Positions 1,099 through 8,434 of a stretch of 32,382 nucleotides of DNA are shown here, one piece after another (positions within the stretch are counted from its first letter, which is position 1; every line of letters starts with the position of its first letter). The notes under the pieces are model-generated. The model did no database searches. It had not been told where the DNA came from and worked only from the letters and a program-made list of their open reading frames with translations. A program made the position numbers and the translations under genes. Origin of the DNA: an uncultured Gammaproteobacteria bacterium (GTDB lineage Bacteria; Pseudomonadota; Gammaproteobacteria; GCA-002705445; GCA-002716945); assembly GCA_913045115.1 (NCBI GenBank), contig CAJWPJ010000012.1, positions 1-32,382 of the forward strand, given 5' to 3'.

Positions 1099-2244
1099 AC
1101 AGCTGGTGCAGTTAAGGCTGCTCTTAAATCAAAAACAAACTCCAACTCAAAATTACTCATTTTATGTGGAGATATTCCGTTTATCACAAGCAGCTCTATT
1201 AAAAAGCTTGTTGCAAAGCTTAAAAACCATGACGCAGTCGTTGGAACTGTAGAGCTTGAATCACCGAAGGGTTATGGAAGAATAATTAGAGTAAATAATA
1301 AATTTAGTTCTATCGTTGAAGAAAACGAAACAACTCCACAGCAGAGGCAAATTAGAGAGGTTAATACAGGCATCATTGCTATCCAGGAAAAAGTATTGAG
1401 AAAATATATTCCATTGATAAAAAACAATAATCAAAAAAAAGAATACTACCTAACTGATATTATCAAAATATTGATAGATCATGACAAGAGTGTCACAACA
1501 TTTAAATTCAGCGATGAAATTGAAGTAAAAGGTGTTAATTCAAAAGTTGATTTAGTAAATCTAGAACAACAATACTTGAGACATAAAGCTGAGCAACTTC
1601 TTGAGAAAGGAACTTTGATAAGAGATCCATCAAGAACAGACATCAGGGGGAAATTAACAGTAAGTAAAAATGTAGAAATAGACATAAACTGTGTGTTCGA
1701 AGACAATGTCTCTATAGGGGAAAATAGTTCTATTGGATATAACTGCTTATTGAACCGATGTAAAATTGGAAAGAACGTAAATATTAAACCCAACACTATT
1801 ATCTTTGGTGCAACCATAGGTGATAATTCAACTGTGGGACCATTTGCTCGAATTAGACCAGGCACTATCATTAAACGATCTTGTAATATAGGAAACTTTG
1901 TTGAAATTAAAAACTCTACAATAGGAGATGGGACAAAGATAAATCACCTAAGTTATGTTGGAGATGCAACACTTGGGAAAGAAGTGAATATTGGTGCAGG
2001 CGCAATTACATGTAATTATGATGGTGTGAATAAACACAAAACTATTGTAAGAGACAATTCTTTTATCGGCTCTGGGTCAATGCTGGTGGCTCCAGTAATT
2101 ATCGGCAAAGGATCATTCATTGCAGCTGGCTCTACAATTACTAGAGATACTTCAGGGTCAGGACATCTAACTATTGCTAGAAGCAAACAAATGACTATAA
2201 GGAATTGGAAGAATAAAAATACTGTAAAAACTAAGAAAAAATAA
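1084..2244 (+). CDS. glmU: GlmU, bifunctional UDP-GlcNAc pyrophosphorylase/GlcN-1-P acetyltransferase, 5'-truncated
   Basis: GlmU acetylates glucosamine-1-phosphate and uridylylates GlcNAc-1-phosphate to give UDP-GlcNAc for peptidoglycan and LPS. The remaining part shows the uridyltransferase motifs LCGDIPF, GYGRI, EVNTGI and YYLTDI, then GVNSKVDL, the linker helix and a long left-handed beta-helix of hexapeptide repeats. The acetyltransferase site is intact: NHLSYVGDA (catalytic His, equivalent to E. coli His363) and CNYDG. Roughly the first 75-80 residues are missing, including the GxGTRM nucleotide loop, so the uridyltransferase half could not work as written. The stop codon overlaps the glmS start by one base (TAATG), the usual glmU-glmS arrangement. 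Family certain; truncation follows from the upstream junction. Confidence 0.92.
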   Translation, partial: KILDGTAGAVKAALKSKTNSNSKLLILCGDIPFITSSSIKKLVAKLKNHDAVVGTVELESPKGYGRIIRVNNKFSSIVEENETTPQQRQIREVNTGIIAIQEKVLRKYIPLIKNNNQKKEYYLTDIIKILIDHDKSVTTFKFSDEIEVKGVNSKVDLVNLEQQYLRHKAEQLLEKGTLIRDPSRTDIRGKLTVSKNVEIDINCVFEDNVSIGENSSIGYNCLLNRCKIGKNVNIKPNTIIFGATIGDNSTVGPFARIRPGTIIKRSCNIGNFVEIKNSTIGDGTKINHLSYVGDATLGKEVNIGAGAITCNYDGVNKHKTIVRDNSFIGSGSMLVAPVIIGKGSFIAAGSTITRDTSGSGHLTIARSKQMTIRNWKNKNTVKTKKK

Positions 2245-4058
2245 TGTGCGGCATTTTTGGAATATCTTCAACTAAACCAATTTCAAACCAACTGATCAAG
2301 GGATTATCAAAACTTGAATACAGAGGTTATGATTCAGCAGGCATTTCAGGCCATGGCATTAATAGTAAATTAATAACTATTAAAGCTACCGGACCAATTA
2401 AAAATCTAAAAAATAAATTATCTAAGTTAAAAGGAATCACAACGGCTGTATCACACACGAGATGGGCGACACATGGGCAGCCAACATTAAAAAATACTCA
2501 TCCACATTTGTCCGAATATATTGGCATTGTCCATAATGGGATTATAGAAAATTATATAGACCTTAGGTCATATTTAAAAAGGAAAGGATATGTTTTTAAA
2601 AGTGATACTGATTCAGAAGTTATCTGCCATTTAATGAATTACTATTTTAATAAGACTGCTGATATGCAATCATCAATTGTATCAACAGCGAATTCGCTGG
2701 AAGGGAGTTATGCAATCGCAGCAATCAATACGCACACACCTCATACGCTTTACACTTCATGCAAAGGAAGCCCAATAATTCTTGGTAAAGGCTTGGATGC
2801 TAATTACATATCGTCTGACATAACTCCAATAATTGATCACACAAAACACTTTATCTCAATGGATGATGGCGAATTTGCAGAAATTAATTCGGCAAGTATC
2901 AAAATATTTAATAAAAATAAAAAAGTAATAAAGAAGCCAACTAAAGTATCGAAGATCGATAAAAACCAAGCCTCATTAATGGGCCATAGACACTTTATGC
3001 ACAAAGAGATTTATGAGCAGAAAACAATTATAAAAGATATGACAAGTCGCTATGTCGGTACTAACAAAATATTACCAAATATATTTGGGCACAATACTGA
3101 TAAGCTTCTTGAAAATATCGAACATATTCATTTTGTAGGTTGCGGTACAAGTTATCATGCATCTTTGGTAGCTAAAGATTGGATTGAGCAATTTTCTAAG
3201 ATTACATGTACTGCTGAAGTTGCCAGCGAATATAAATATAAAAAGATAAATGTATTACCTAAGACACTTTTTGTAAGTATTTCTCAGTCTGGTGAGACTG
3301 CCGATACTATCTCATCACTTAAGAAAGCTCTAAAACTCAGGTATACAAATACTCTAGCTATATGTAATGTAGCAGAAAGCACGCTTACAAGATTATCTAG
3401 TATGAATTTTCTTATGAATGCAGGGCCAGAAATAAGCGTTGCATCAACCAAGGCTTTTACATCGCAATTATTTACTCTTTTGTTGCTAACAGTGATTCTC
3501 TCAAGAAAGTACGGCAAAACAGAAAAAAAGATGGTTCAAGATATAAGACAGATAGATAAGAAAATAGATGAACTTTACAAAATGGAAGACGAGATTAAGA
3601 AAATATCTTCTAAATTCAAAAACAAAGAGCATACTCTTTTTTTAGGTAAAGGGACATCTTACCCCATAGCTCTTGAGGCTGCTTTAAAACTGAAAGAAAT
3701 ATCATACATCCATGCATCAGCGTATCATTCTGGCGAACTAAAGCATGGCCCCTTAGCGCTAGTTGATAAAAAGATGCCGGTTGTATGTTTTCTTCCTGAT
3801 AATCATCTAGCTAGGTTAGTCTTATCTAATCTTGCTGAAGTTGAGGCAAGGCAAGGTCAAACATTTATTTTCACTAACAAAAAAATTGCCAGAAACAAGA
3901 AACAAGTGGAAGTGATAAAAATGCCAGATTGTCCTGACCTTATTGTTCCAATACTTTACATTATCCCCGCACAACTTTTGAGTTATCATGTTGCTTTGAA
4001 AAAAAATACTGACGTAGATAAGCCAAGGAACCTTGCGAAATCAGTCACAGTGGAGTAG
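2244..4058 (+). CDS. glmS: Glutamine--fructose-6-phosphate aminotransferase (isomerizing)
   Basis: Makes glucosamine-6-phosphate from fructose-6-phosphate and glutamine, the entry step to UDP-GlcNAc, completed by the adjacent GlmU. The protein begins MCGIFGI, so Cys2 becomes the N-terminal nucleophile of the class II glutaminase domain (about 1-220, with the THTRWATHG-type motif seen here as SHTRWATHG). Two SIS sugar-isomerase domains follow (about 285-430 and 455-590) with CGTSYHAS, SQSGETADT and the SGELKHGPLAL motif. The C-terminus DVDKPRNLAKSVTVE is the canonical GlmS end carrying the catalytic Lys. Length 604 residues matches the family (609 in E. coli). Its start overlaps the glmU stop by one base, suggesting translational coupling. 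No glmS ribozyme or GlmZ-like site was seen. Confidence 0.98.
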   Translation: MCGIFGISSTKPISNQLIKGLSKLEYRGYDSAGISGHGINSKLITIKATGPIKNLKNKLSKLKGITTAVSHTRWATHGQPTLKNTHPHLSEYIGIVHNGIIENYIDLRSYLKRKGYVFKSDTDSEVICHLMNYYFNKTADMQSSIVSTANSLEGSYAIAAINTHTPHTLYTSCKGSPIILGKGLDANYISSDITPIIDHTKHFISMDDGEFAEINSASIKIFNKNKKVIKKPTKVSKIDKNQASLMGHRHFMHKEIYEQKTIIKDMTSRYVGTNKILPNIFGHNTDKLLENIEHIHFVGCGTSYHASLVAKDWIEQFSKITCTAEVASEYKYKKINVLPKTLFVSISQSGETADTISSLKKALKLRYTNTLAICNVAESTLTRLSSMNFLMNAGPEISVASTKAFTSQLFTLLLLTVILSRKYGKTEKKMVQDIRQIDKKIDELYKMEDEIKKISSKFKNKEHTLFLGKGTSYPIALEAALKLKEISYIHASAYHSGELKHGPLALVDKKMPVVCFLPDNHLARLVLSNLAEVEARQGQTFIFTNKKIARNKKQVEVIKMPDCPDLIVPILYIIPAQLLSYHVALKKNTDVDKPRNLAKSVTVE

Positions 4059-4068
4059 TTTTTAGTTA

Positions 4069-4215
4069 CTAGCAGCAGTTATCTGAATCATCGCAGCATC
4101 CATCCTTGCAACATGTAGTGCTACACTCTCCAGTCTTGCAACCATCGCTGCAACACCCATCAGCGCAACAAGTATTCTTGCAACATGTTTCTGCTTTGTC
4201 TTTTTGATCTGTCAT
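4069..4215 (-). CDS. 48-residue cysteine-rich, metallothionein-like protein
   Basis: Reading the minus strand from ATG at 4215 to TAG at 4069 gives 48 residues with 14 Cys (29%). There is no Cys-poor core: six Cys-Cys pairs at 11-12, 16-17, 21-22, 35-36, 40-41 and 47-48, plus single Cys at 26 and 31, a near five-residue period (CCKNT CCADG CCSDG). The rest is Lys, Asp, Glu, Gly, Thr and Ser, with no aromatic residue and no His. This composition fits a cytosolic metal-thiolate cluster protein; there is no signal peptide. AAGAG lies about 7 bases before the ATG, and a strong sigma-70-like promoter lies just upstream (4242-4271). It is convergent with glmS. I do not recognise the sequence family; metal binding is inferred from composition only. 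Confidence 0.75.
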   Translation of the reverse strand: MTDQKDKAETCCKNTCCADGCCSDGCKTGECSTTCCKDGCCDDSDNCC

Positions 4216-4241
4216 ATGAGTTCTCTTAAACTTATAAAGTC

Positions 4242-4271
4242 ATTATATACACTCTGTTAAAGCGATATCAA
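4242..4271 (-). promoter_or_regulatory. Sigma-70-type promoter of the Cys-rich protein gene
   Basis: On the minus strand TTGATA (4271-4266) is followed after 18 bases by a perfect TATAAT (4247-4242). Transcription would start near 4235, leaving a leader of about 20 bases that holds the AAGAG ribosome site. This is one of the best promoter matches in the window. Confidence 0.6.
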
Positions 4272-4296
4272 ACGATAATTCAACAAAAAGTAATCT

Positions 4297-4989
4297 TTAA
4301 AGACTTTCTTTAGGTAAGGAATTTTCTGTAATTCTTCCTTTTTCATTCTTGACCAAAAAAGAATTTTTATCATCTTTAAAAGATATCGCTTTAACAACCT
4401 GGTCATTTTTCAAATGTAATGCACAGCCGCCATCTATTGCATAACAATCACTAAGCTCTCCATTTAAGATAAATTTTGATAAAGATGGCTTTCTTTCAGG
4501 TTCTTCATCATAGTGTGGACAACAATTACCTTTCGTATAACCTAAGCAGTCTAAAATATTCAGCTTATTTGCCCATGAGTCTGTTATACCTTTTTCAAAC
4601 CAACATATTGCACCAGCACTTACTCCGCTCATTATAGTTCCTGATTCATACGCATTTTTTAAAATTATATCCAAACCCCATTCACGCCAAACTGCTAACA
4701 TACTTTTAGTATTTCCACCGCCTACAAAAATTATATCTTGTGTCTGAATTAATTTTTCTAGGTTCGGAGTTCTCTTAAAAAAATCTAAATGAGTTGGATT
4801 ACAGTTCAACTTAGTCATTGTCGAATAATAACTAACTTTATAAGATTCACTATCTCCAGTTGCTGTCGGAATAAAGCAGATGTTTGGAGTTTCCTTGCCT
4901 GATTGATCTAGTACATATTTTTCAATAATACCAACCCCAGGATTTCTTCCAAACCCACCACCACCAATTGCTATGATTTGCTTATCCAT
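4297..4989 (-). CDS. Peptidase E-like protein (family S51)
   Basis: Similar to alpha-aspartyl dipeptidase PepE and cyanophycinase relatives, Ser peptidases with a class I glutamine-amidotransferase-like fold. Visible motifs are an N-terminal glycine-rich strand (IAIGGGGFG), ICFIPTATGD, FVGGGNTKSML (oxyanion/Gly-rich motif) and the nucleophile elbow GVSAGAICW with Ser124. CPHYDEEPERKP supplies His159, as in the PepE family, and AIDGGCALH follows. At 230 residues it matches PepE length. The ATG at 4989 is the only acceptable start after an in-frame TAA upstream; no close ribosome site is seen, the nearest AAGGAG being more than 20 bases away. Natural substrate is unknown; it could act on Asp-X dipeptides in turnover. 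Confidence 0.85.
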   Translation of the reverse strand: MDKQIIAIGGGGFGRNPGVGIIEKYVLDQSGKETPNICFIPTATGDSESYKVSYYSTMTKLNCNPTHLDFFKRTPNLEKLIQTQDIIFVGGGNTKSMLAVWREWGLDIILKNAYESGTIMSGVSAGAICWFEKGITDSWANKLNILDCLGYTKGNCCPHYDEEPERKPSLSKFILNGELSDCYAIDGGCALHLKNDQVVKAISFKDDKNSFLVKNEKGRITENSLPKESL

Positions 4990-5089: not shown

Positions 5090-5536
5090 ATGCTTAATGT
5101 ATATTTATCAGGAGAAATTCACACTGATTGGAGACAAGAAATAATTGATGAGTGCCAAAAAGAAGGGCTGGATATCAACTTTTCATCGCCAGTTACTAAT
5201 CATGAATTATCAGATAACTGTGGAGTAGATATCCTAGGCGCAGAGGAGAATAATTTCTGGAAAGACAATAAAGGCGCAAATATCAATTCAATCCGTACTA
5301 AAAAATCAATCGAAGACAGTGATGTTGTAATAGTTAAGTTTGGAGAGAAATACAAACAGTGGAATGCTGCATTCGATGCAGGCTATGCTTCAGCATTGAA
5401 TAAATCAATAGTCGTTATTCATGGAGATGAACATCAACATCCACTTAAAGAGGTTGATGCTGCGGCATGTGCAGTGACAAAAGATCAGAGCCAAGCAGTC
5501 AAGATACTCAAGTACATCGTCCAAGGTTCTTTGTAA
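5090..5536 (+). CDS. ytoQ: YtoQ family protein (nucleoside 2-deoxyribosyltransferase-like fold)
   Basis: A 148-residue protein matching the YtoQ family: NVYLSGEIHTDWR at the N-terminus, SPVTNHELSDNCG, FWKDNKGANINSIRT, the DSDVVIVKFGEKYKQWN stretch and AAFDAGYASALNKS. The YLSG start and the later DAGYA motif are typical of the nucleoside 2-deoxyribosyltransferase-like superfamily, but no reaction is established for YtoQ as far as I know. The start is supported by AAGGAG seven bases before the ATG. It is the first of three closely packed plus-strand genes leading to proteorhodopsin; the next gene begins eight bases after the stop. Confidence 0.88.
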   Translation: MLNVYLSGEIHTDWRQEIIDECQKEGLDINFSSPVTNHELSDNCGVDILGAEENNFWKDNKGANINSIRTKKSIEDSDVVIVKFGEKYKQWNAAFDAGYASALNKSIVVIHGDEHQHPLKEVDAAACAVTKDQSQAVKILKYIVQGSL

Positions 5537-6149: not shown

Positions 6150-6911
6150 ATGAGGAACGTTTTATCATATGCTCTCTCACTACTATTAGTATCTGCTCTA
6201 CCGTCCGTAGCACTTGCTGGGGATTTACAAGCAAACGACTTTGTAGGGGTGACATTTTGGATAATTTCGATTTCGATGGTTGCAGCAACTCTCTTCTTCT
6301 TCTCTGAAAGATCTAGAGTGTCAGCTAAATGGCAAACATCGTTATCAGTCATATCACTAGTAACGCTAATAGCAGCTGTGCACTATTTCTACATGAGAGA
6401 AGTGTGGGTTGAAACAGGCGAGTCTCCAACAGTATTTAGATATATTGACTGGATATTAACTGTGCCGTTACAAATGATCGAATTCTATTTGATACTAGCA
6501 GCGGTAACAACTGTTAGTGCAGGTGTATTCAATAGACTGCTTGTAGGTACATTAGTCATGCTGATTGGTGGTTACTTAGGTGAAGCTGGAGTCATCAACG
6601 CGATGCTTGGATTCATCATCGGGATGGCAGGCTGGATATACATCCTGTATGAAATCTTTGCTGGTGAAGCAGGACAAAAAAGTACGTCTTGTGGAAGCAT
6701 AGGTGCTCAAATGGCATTTAACGCGTGTCGTATGATCGTGTTAGTTGGTTGGGCAATTTACCCACTCGGTTATCTATTTGGATATTTAATGGGTGGAGTC
6801 GATGCAGCAAGCTTGAACTTGATTTATAACCTTGCAGATTTTGTAAACAAAATCGCATTCGGTGTATTTATCTGGGCAGCTGCAGTAGCAGATTCAGCAG
6901 AAACTGCATAA
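6150..6911 (+). CDS. Proteorhodopsin, light-driven proton pump (blue-tuned)
   Basis: A 253-residue seven-helix retinal protein with a cleavable N-terminal signal (MRNVLSYALSLLLVSALPSVALA). Pump residues are present: His78, Arg97, Asp100 (proton acceptor, Asp97 of green proteorhodopsin), Thr104 and Glu111 (donor, Glu108), together the DTE pattern of proton pumps. Lys234 in ADFVNKIAFG binds retinal. The tuning position, 105 in the reference numbering, is Gln108 (TVPLQMIEFY), which predicts blue absorption. AAGGAG sits six bases from the ATG, the best ribosome site in the light block, consistent with high expression. It is followed by a hairpin and then the retinal-synthesis genes. Identity and pump class are confident; the spectrum is inferred from one residue. 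Confidence 0.98.
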   Translation: MRNVLSYALSLLLVSALPSVALAGDLQANDFVGVTFWIISISMVAATLFFFSERSRVSAKWQTSLSVISLVTLIAAVHYFYMREVWVETGESPTVFRYIDWILTVPLQMIEFYLILAAVTTVSAGVFNRLLVGTLVMLIGGYLGEAGVINAMLGFIIGMAGWIYILYEIFAGEAGQKSTSCGSIGAQMAFNACRMIVLVGWAIYPLGYLFGYLMGGVDAASLNLIYNLADFVNKIAFGVFIWAAAVADSAETA

Positions 6912-6929
6912 ACAAAACTAAATATATGT

Positions 6930-6953
6930 ACAAGGAGCGCTTGCGCTCCTTGT
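6930..6953 (+). terminator. Hairpin between proteorhodopsin and crtI (attenuator or weak terminator)
   Basis: A perfect 10-bp stem, ACAAGGAGCG with CGCTCCTTGT, closes a four-base loop CTTG; T6929-A6954 can extend it. Only a poor U tract follows (TATTATGT), so full termination is doubtful. It lies 18 bases after the proteorhodopsin stop and could protect that message or let only part of transcription reach crtI. The left arm contains AAGGAG. Confidence 0.65.
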
Positions 6954-6964
6954 ATTATGTCTGA

Positions 6965-8434
6965 ATGAAAAAAACTTTTGTCATTGGTTCGGGCTTCGGT
7001 GGCCTAGCAATTGCTTGTAGACTAAAAGCAATGGGCCACGATGTTACCGTACTTGAAAAGTTAGATAATTTGGGCGGTCGAGCTCGCACACTCTATCATA
7101 ATGAATTTGAATATGATGCAGGCCCTACAGTTATTACTGCACCTTATTTACTTAATGAAATATTCAACCTATTTAATAAAGATTCTCGTGATTACTTTAA
7201 TTTGCTCCGAGTTGATCCTTATTATAGGTTTATATTCAGCGATCAATCTCACTTTGATTATGGCTCTTCTCTTAAGTCTATGCTTAGACAAATTGAGACG
7301 AATTACTCTAAAGATGATTCACTGGGATATCTCAGTCTTCTCAGGCATTCAAAAAGAATTTTTAATACTGCATACTTACAATTAGCTGATTATCCATTTG
7401 AAAATATACAAAGTATGTTTCCTTACATACCTGAATTAATGAGAATCAAGTTTTATAAATCTGTACATAGTTCCGTTAAAACATACTTGAAAAATGACAA
7501 CCTTGTCAAAGCACTCAGCATGCATCCTCTTTTGGTGGGTGGCAATCCCTACACTACTACATCAATCTACTTGTTAATCCAATATTTAGAATGGAAATGG
7601 GGTGTTTATTACGGAGAAGGTGGCACACGCTCAATAGTAAATGGCTTTGAGAGGCTATTTAAAGAGGAAGGAATTGAATATAAAACAAACTGTGAAGTTT
7701 TAAATATTCATCACAAAAATCATCACATAAAAACTATTGAGACAACAAAAGGGGACTTCGATGCAGACATTGTTGTAAGTAATGCTGACCCTTCATTTGT
7801 TTATGAAAATATTCTCAAAATTAAGCCCAAAAAAATATTTAATAAAAAATCGATATTAAAACATTCCATGGGTTTATTTGTCTTTTATTTTTCTACTAAA
7901 AAAATCTATAACGATGTTCAACACCATACTATTATTTTTAATAAAAGGCATAAAGGACTTCTTGATGACATTTTTGATAATAAAGTCTACATTAATGATC
8001 CCAGCCTATATTTACATCGCCCTTTAGCTACTGATAAAAAAAATATACAAAATGACTGTGACTCATTCTATGTACTAGCACCCGTAGCTAATAACCAGAG
8101 TGACATTAATTGGAGTGATAAAGGCAATGAGTTCTGCCAACATGTTATAAGTATTCTAAGTGATACTGTATTGCCAGATCTTAAATCACATATTGTTGAC
8201 CAGTTCTTTGTTACTCCTGATTACTTTGAAACAGAACTAAATTCATATAATGGAAGTGGATTTGGCATACAGCCTATCTTTAGACAATCAGCTTATTTTC
8301 GTTACTCAAATAAATCCCAGGAACTTGATAATCTGTATTTCGTCGGTGCTGGTAGCCATCCAGGAGCAGGAGTTCCAGGCGTATTATCCTCTGCAAAAGT
8401 TACTGAAAAGCTTATACTTAAATATGATGCGTAG
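6965..8434 (+). CDS. crtI: Phytoene desaturase
   Basis: Converts phytoene to lycopene by four desaturations; FAD-dependent, CrtI type. The N-terminus KKTFVIGSGFGGLAIACRL is the FAD dinucleotide fold, followed by EKLDNLGGRAR and DAGPTVI, both typical of CrtI. The middle has GVYYGEGGTRSIVNGFERLFKE-type sequence split here as YYGEGGTRSIVNGF, and the C-terminus FVGAGSHPGAGVPGVLSSAK is the bacterial desaturase signature. Length 489 is normal. The ATG at 6965 has no ribosome site in the usual place; a three-codon frame (ATG at 6957, M-S-E-stop) ends on its start codon. First gene of the retinal operon; its last 11 bases overlap crtB. The usual neighbour crtE is missing. Confidence 0.97.
   Translation: MKKTFVIGSGFGGLAIACRLKAMGHDVTVLEKLDNLGGRARTLYHNEFEYDAGPTVITAPYLLNEIFNLFNKDSRDYFNLLRVDPYYRFIFSDQSHFDYGSSLKSMLRQIETNYSKDDSLGYLSLLRHSKRIFNTAYLQLADYPFENIQSMFPYIPELMRIKFYKSVHSSVKTYLKNDNLVKALSMHPLLVGGNPYTTTSIYLLIQYLEWKWGVYYGEGGTRSIVNGFERLFKEEGIEYKTNCEVLNIHHKNHHIKTIETTKGDFDADIVVSNADPSFVYENILKIKPKKIFNKKSILKHSMGLFVFYFSTKKIYNDVQHHTIIFNKRHKGLLDDIFDNKVYINDPSLYLHRPLATDKKNIQNDCDSFYVLAPVANNQSDINWSDKGNEFCQHVISILSDTVLPDLKSHIVDQFFVTPDYFETELNSYNGSGFGIQPIFRQSAYFRYSNKSQELDNLYFVGAGSHPGAGVPGVLSSAKVTEKLILKYDA

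Follow-up and report, generated by a model that had tools for sequence, protein, structure and literature searches.

In a 32,382-nucleotide stretch of DNA from an uncultured gammaproteobacterium (the whole of which is called the window below), we identified a genuine protein-coding gene under purifying selection whose 48-residue product contains 14 cysteines and which is patchily distributed in several unrelated small-genome marine proteobacterial groups. The product is probably (at a chance of about three in four, by our estimate) a metallothionein-like chelator that acts on its own in the cytosol and belongs to a new sequence family, whose gene would have been patchily gained or lost at variable sites. 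The relevant features of the window are the following.

2244..4058, plus strand: glmS, convergent neighbour whose 3' flank is variable in the family
4059..4290: approximate extent of the segment that the relative L057 lacks (empty site)
4069..4215, minus strand, stop codon included: gene for the Cys-rich metallothionein-like protein (48 aa, 14 Cys), based on conservation and selection
4222..4227, minus strand: ribosome-site-like AAGAGA, ending 6 nt before the ATG, based on sequence
4242..4247, minus strand: -10-like hexamer TATAAT, consensus match only
4266..4271, minus strand: -35-like hexamer TTGATA, 18-nt spacer, consensus match only
4297..4989, minus strand: peptidase S51 (PepE/cyanophycinase-like) gene, upstream neighbour on the same strand

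Translation of the ORF at 4069-4215 on the minus strand yields MTDQKDKAETCCKNTCCADGCCSDGCKTGECSTTCCKDGCCDDSDNCC, a peptide of 48 residues, and bears out what an earlier note on this DNA had described for the frame, namely 14 Cys, six CC pairs, no aromatic residue and no His. With a low molecular weight and a Cys content of 29%, the peptide has the size and Cys richness expected of a metallothionein. The CC pairs are located at positions 11-12, 16-17, 21-22, 35-36, 40-41 and 47-48 while C26 and C31 are unpaired. The five-residue Cys rhythm, also pointed out in the note, is kept along most of the peptide but slips by one past C31 and by two ahead of 47/48. The chain is hydrophilic and its N terminus has no signal-like hydrophobic character. 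In the window copy, neither His nor F, W or Y occurs. Since Y or F is frequent at position 14 in relatives, and some of them contain His in unconserved places, these absences are not family traits. Aromatic residues are nonetheless as scarce as is usual for metallothioneins, with none in the window copy and one Y/F in many relatives.

The next-richest of the window's 145 ORFs of 30 or more residues has 8 Cys per 48 residues, and 8 was also the maximum when the locus was shuffled 2000 times under a first-order Markov model. The earlier note had made its proposal depend on homologous frames free of frame-breaking changes, and these were found: the frame is intact in more than 50 genomes, with the Cys pattern kept over several orders and, judged by record titles, three proteobacterial classes. 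In a 32-row family alignment, 12 columns are invariant, 10 of them Cys, and conservation is 90% or higher in the remaining four Cys columns. Conserved non-Cys positions are A18, G20, D24 and G29. Both TGT and TGC are used, in different genomes, at all 14 Cys columns, which indicates that selection acts on the residue. The comparison of synonymous and non-synonymous change proposed in the note gave a median dN/dS of 0.18 (289 usable pairs of family members), as expected under purifying selection. A spurious frame or a non-coding feature might have been suspected because the ORF is short, has no match in the libraries searched and is missing from most close relatives. Its maintenance in more than 50 genomes of several orders and the synonymous changes at every Cys column argue against this, and on the strength of the alignment and of the Cys codon and dN/dS analysis we discard the idea with near certainty. 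The repeat seems to be somewhat modular, since one five-residue CC unit is missing in two members (L025 and L030) and the C-terminus is altered in the most distant ones (L033, L039 and L040).

A near-consensus promoter and a ribosome site of its own had also been attributed to the gene. Both are present in the window copy by sequence match, where the putative sigma-70-like promoter TTGATA-N18-TATAAT (4271-4242, minus strand) agrees with the consensus at 11 of 12 positions, a score that ca. 1% of shuffled versions of the upstream sequence attain. The promoter is not, however, a trait of the family. When a conserved promoter was sought in relatives, an echo was seen in L015 and a partial one in L026, and in most relatives the score does not exceed that of shuffled sequence. 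The purine-rich ribosome-site-like elements of relatives are stronger than AAGAGA and lie at a comparable distance. As a separate observation, a perfect 15-bp inverted repeat (4255-4269 and 4382-4396) has one arm in the promoter region of the Cys-rich ORF and the other at the 3' end of pepE, and strong folding is predicted for the RNA running from pepE to the ORF (z = -3.6). This repeat could be an attenuator or the trace of a template switch; the relatives L057 and L060 lack the same pepE arm.

The gene is present as a single copy in its own genome (1.05 Mb, 96.65% complete) and occurs in 4 of 25 genomes of the same gammaproteobacterial family. This family is probably SAR86, to judge from the small genome of the window's organism, its proteorhodopsin and carotenoid genes and the gammaproteobacterial titles of matching contigs. 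By profile search, 29 of 136 genomes in an order containing SAR116 relatives have the gene, and another order, reached via an alphaproteobacterial contig, carries it in 17 of 32 genomes. In even samples of the class (369 genomes) and the phylum (398 genomes), only the window's own copy was recovered. The 35 loci found among genome contigs are mostly titled as SAR116-cluster and other alphaproteobacteria, the rest as TMED41-type betaproteobacteria and gammaproteobacteria. Phage or plasmid carriage was rejected, as neither the IMG/VR contigs and GenBank phages nor PLSDB contained a match.

In the window, the Cys-rich ORF has its stop ca. 10 bp past that of glmS and is followed by pepE. Of the relatives, L057 has the GlmS most similar to that of the window (98% identity across its C-terminal half), and there glmS and the peptidase gene are immediate neighbours. 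The difference amounts to ca. 230 bp, comprises the ORF plus promoter and may represent either a gain in the window's genome or a loss in G002. The location next to glmS suggested in the earlier note applies to part of the family, both gamma- and alphaproteobacterial, while other members lie near guaA. Genomes of the related genus g6 likewise carry it at glmS but differ in what lies beyond; in G022 it is separated from glmS by further genes, one of them with a NOV_C domain. In three contigs titled as alphaproteobacterial (L009, L026 and L007) it also lies near glmS. In six further records (L010, L012, L014, L016, L020 and L038), titled as alpha- and betaproteobacterial, it lies 466-1412 bp downstream of guaA, and the GuaA proteins encoded there share only 46-64% identity with each other. 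At the glmS 3' flank the gene content varies, since other relatives carry unrelated genes at the same place, including some whose products resemble DNA methyltransferases (read by eye from N termini). We take the glmS 3' flank (attTn7) and the guaA flank (genomic islands) to be classical integration sites. With Tn7-type cargo at attTn7 the gene shares only the site: in a search for Tn7-type ends and tns genes at the glmS locus, no transposon end was recognised by eye.

Other forms of linkage were likewise rejected. By comparison of coordinates, 1 of 27 genomes (G433) has an intact PF00589 integrase gene no more than 4 kb from the Cys-rich gene on its contig, and G426 has a decayed PF00589 fragment 1.3 kb from it. 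tRNAs occur in some flanks without a consistent link. No neighbour is common to all lineages among those scanned, which speaks against a conserved operon partner, and these did not include a recognisable modification enzyme, a metal sensor, an exporter or a resistance gene. The pattern may reflect vertical inheritance with loss inside each lineage or repeated insertion, both of which are compatible with the data.

Several further observations were made around these loci. In two genomes from different genera (L059 and L072), TTAACTCTGAACAGGGTGG stands just after the glmS stop and resembles the end of a Tn7-like element. It is followed by similar motifs (ACATA..AAAGTT.TCCACAG), and the adjoining genes look by eye like restriction or methylation genes. 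The window also encodes (5090-5536) a YtoQ-family protein 78-80% identical to those encoded close to the Cys-rich gene on the alphaproteobacterial contigs L009 and L026, whose GlmS is only ca. 43% identical to that of the window; it is possibly a second transferred gene at the same locus. In six SAR116 contigs (L036, at 4662-4916, and L032, L034, L035, L037 and L038) a small ORF of 73-84 aa lies directly upstream of the Cys-rich gene and has zinc-ribbon-like Cys pairs (CSKCEYP...CYNC in L036); the one scanned had no Pfam match. Further along the window (6150-8434), a bacteriorhodopsin-like protein is followed by a CrtI-type phytoene desaturase, a pair as expected for a proteorhodopsin-bearing marine bacterium.

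Searches of Pfam, NCBIfam, PHROGs and the PDB gave chance-level hits at most for the peptide and, where run, for the family. In the PDB, no metallothionein was matched even at E <= 10, including the eukaryotic CC-motif proteins, and only weak matches to disulfide-rich peptides appeared (best E = 0.41). PF02069, the model of the SmtA, BmtA and Pseudomonas metallothioneins, matched neither the window peptide nor any of 32 relatives, and was absent from the 25 genomes of the gammaproteobacterial family while a Synechococcus control was positive. The likeness to these proteins lies in being a small Cys-rich bacterial protein with presumed metal-thiolate clusters. In contrast to SmtA/BmtA, the family has CC doublets in a five-residue rhythm and essentially no His, its member here has 14 Cys compared with about 9, there is no sequence match, and no zinc-finger-like fold is predicted. 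SmtA-type clusters use Cys and His (PMC7387436), and the peptide offers no such His ligand. Another short Cys-rich ORF missed by annotation is MymT, the Cu(I)-binding metallothionein of Mycobacterium tuberculosis (PMC7558416); this comparison is by description, and the family was not linked to it by searches of the above libraries, which may lack a MymT model. AlphaFold2 gave no confident fold (mean pLDDT 60, pTM 0.33), and the model was too weak for a fold search. It would fit a peptide folded by metal but equally any disordered one, and is thus compatible with the metallothionein reading rather than evidence for it. Eukaryotic metallothioneins also contain CC motifs, and the Cys number of the peptide is within the usual range.

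Other functions were also considered. A thiol store or redox buffer that scavenges reactive oxygen and nitrogen species, with metal binding incidental, would suit the high thiol density and presumably the light-exposed surface ocean, and scavenging of reactive species is described for metallothioneins (PMC7387436). We consider this unlikely because the fixed Cys spacing and the conserved A18, G20, D24 and G29 suggest a defined ligand geometry. Because NCBIfam contains a precursor model with Cys at every fifth residue, we also considered a RiPP precursor whose Cys-rich core would be enzymatically modified, for example to thioether links by a radical SAM/SPASM maturase, and exported as a bioactive peptide. 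The spacing does recall CefA (NF038108), although only 1 of 32 members touches this model, at E = 3 and below the cut-off. No maturase, protease or exporter is found among the shared neighbours; the assumed partner of CefA is a SPASM protein. Such a protein is present in 7 of 18 carrier genomes overall but in none of the four carriers of the window's own family (G000, G021, G022 and G023), and conservation of the chain from residue 11 on would leave a leader of only ca. 10 residues. A RiPP precursor therefore appears quite improbable.

Weaker still is the case for a secreted disulfide-rich peptide with a bacteriocin-like or defensive role, which we regard as very unlikely. Small size, Cys richness and the weak PDB matches to disulfide-rich peptides speak for it, while the N terminus lacks a signal-like hydrophobic stretch and no export or immunity gene is common to the neighbours. 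Adjacent CC pairs are, moreover, unusual in disulfide frameworks. The metallothionein reading itself has to accommodate CC doublets at five-residue steps, which are unlike the SmtA-type Cys-His pattern, and the peptide might instead serve in redox chemistry or sulfur storage, or be matured by an unlinked system. Since the sequence matches none of the known families and neither maturation nor export genes lie alongside, a metallothionein of a new type, as suggested in the earlier note, is nevertheless the best reading of the sequence, under which it would bind metal.

As a metallothionein, the apo-peptide would be unstructured, and in the reducing cytosol its 14 thiolates would wrap soft d10 metal ions (Zn2+, Cu+ or Cd2+). 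In metallothioneins the metal is bound in metal-thiolate clusters (PMC7387436), and folding follows metal binding (PMC7558416). The Cys fall into an N-terminal block of eight (C11-C31) and a C-terminal block of six (C35-C48), which suggests that they would form one or two clusters. By analogy with the stoichiometries of other metallothioneins, the peptide would probably take up some 4-5 divalent ions, or a larger number of Cu+; for comparison, SmtA accommodates four Zn although it has fewer Cys (PMC10612145, PMC7387436). The protein may act as a metal buffer or detoxifier, expressed from a promoter of its own. As neither a sensor nor an exporter was seen linked to the gene, any regulation would probably act in trans. 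For the Pseudomonas metallothionein, induction in stationary phase rather than a need for metal resistance has been reported (PMC7387436). The gene itself would be an accessory trait gained and lost at the glmS and guaA 3' flanks of small-genome marine proteobacteria. On the broader proposal of an undescribed His-free CC-x3 metallothionein family that widely serves small-genome proteobacteria of the surface ocean as a metal buffer and crosses classes as a single-gene insertion at glmS/guaA 3' hotspots, we lean neither way.

In conclusion, we infer that the protein works like a metallothionein, yet it would stand outside the tested SmtA-type family. A biological role has been established for few bacterial metallothioneins, two having been counted in one study before its own (PMC7387436), and no paper mentioning metallothionein together with SAR86 or SAR116 was found among the open papers searched. 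If our reading is correct, a His-free CC-repeat family in uncultured ocean lineages would represent a new thiolate architecture, genome-streamlined cells would be seen to retain or regain a dedicated metal chelator, and the gene would provide a marker to seek in marine metatranscriptomes.
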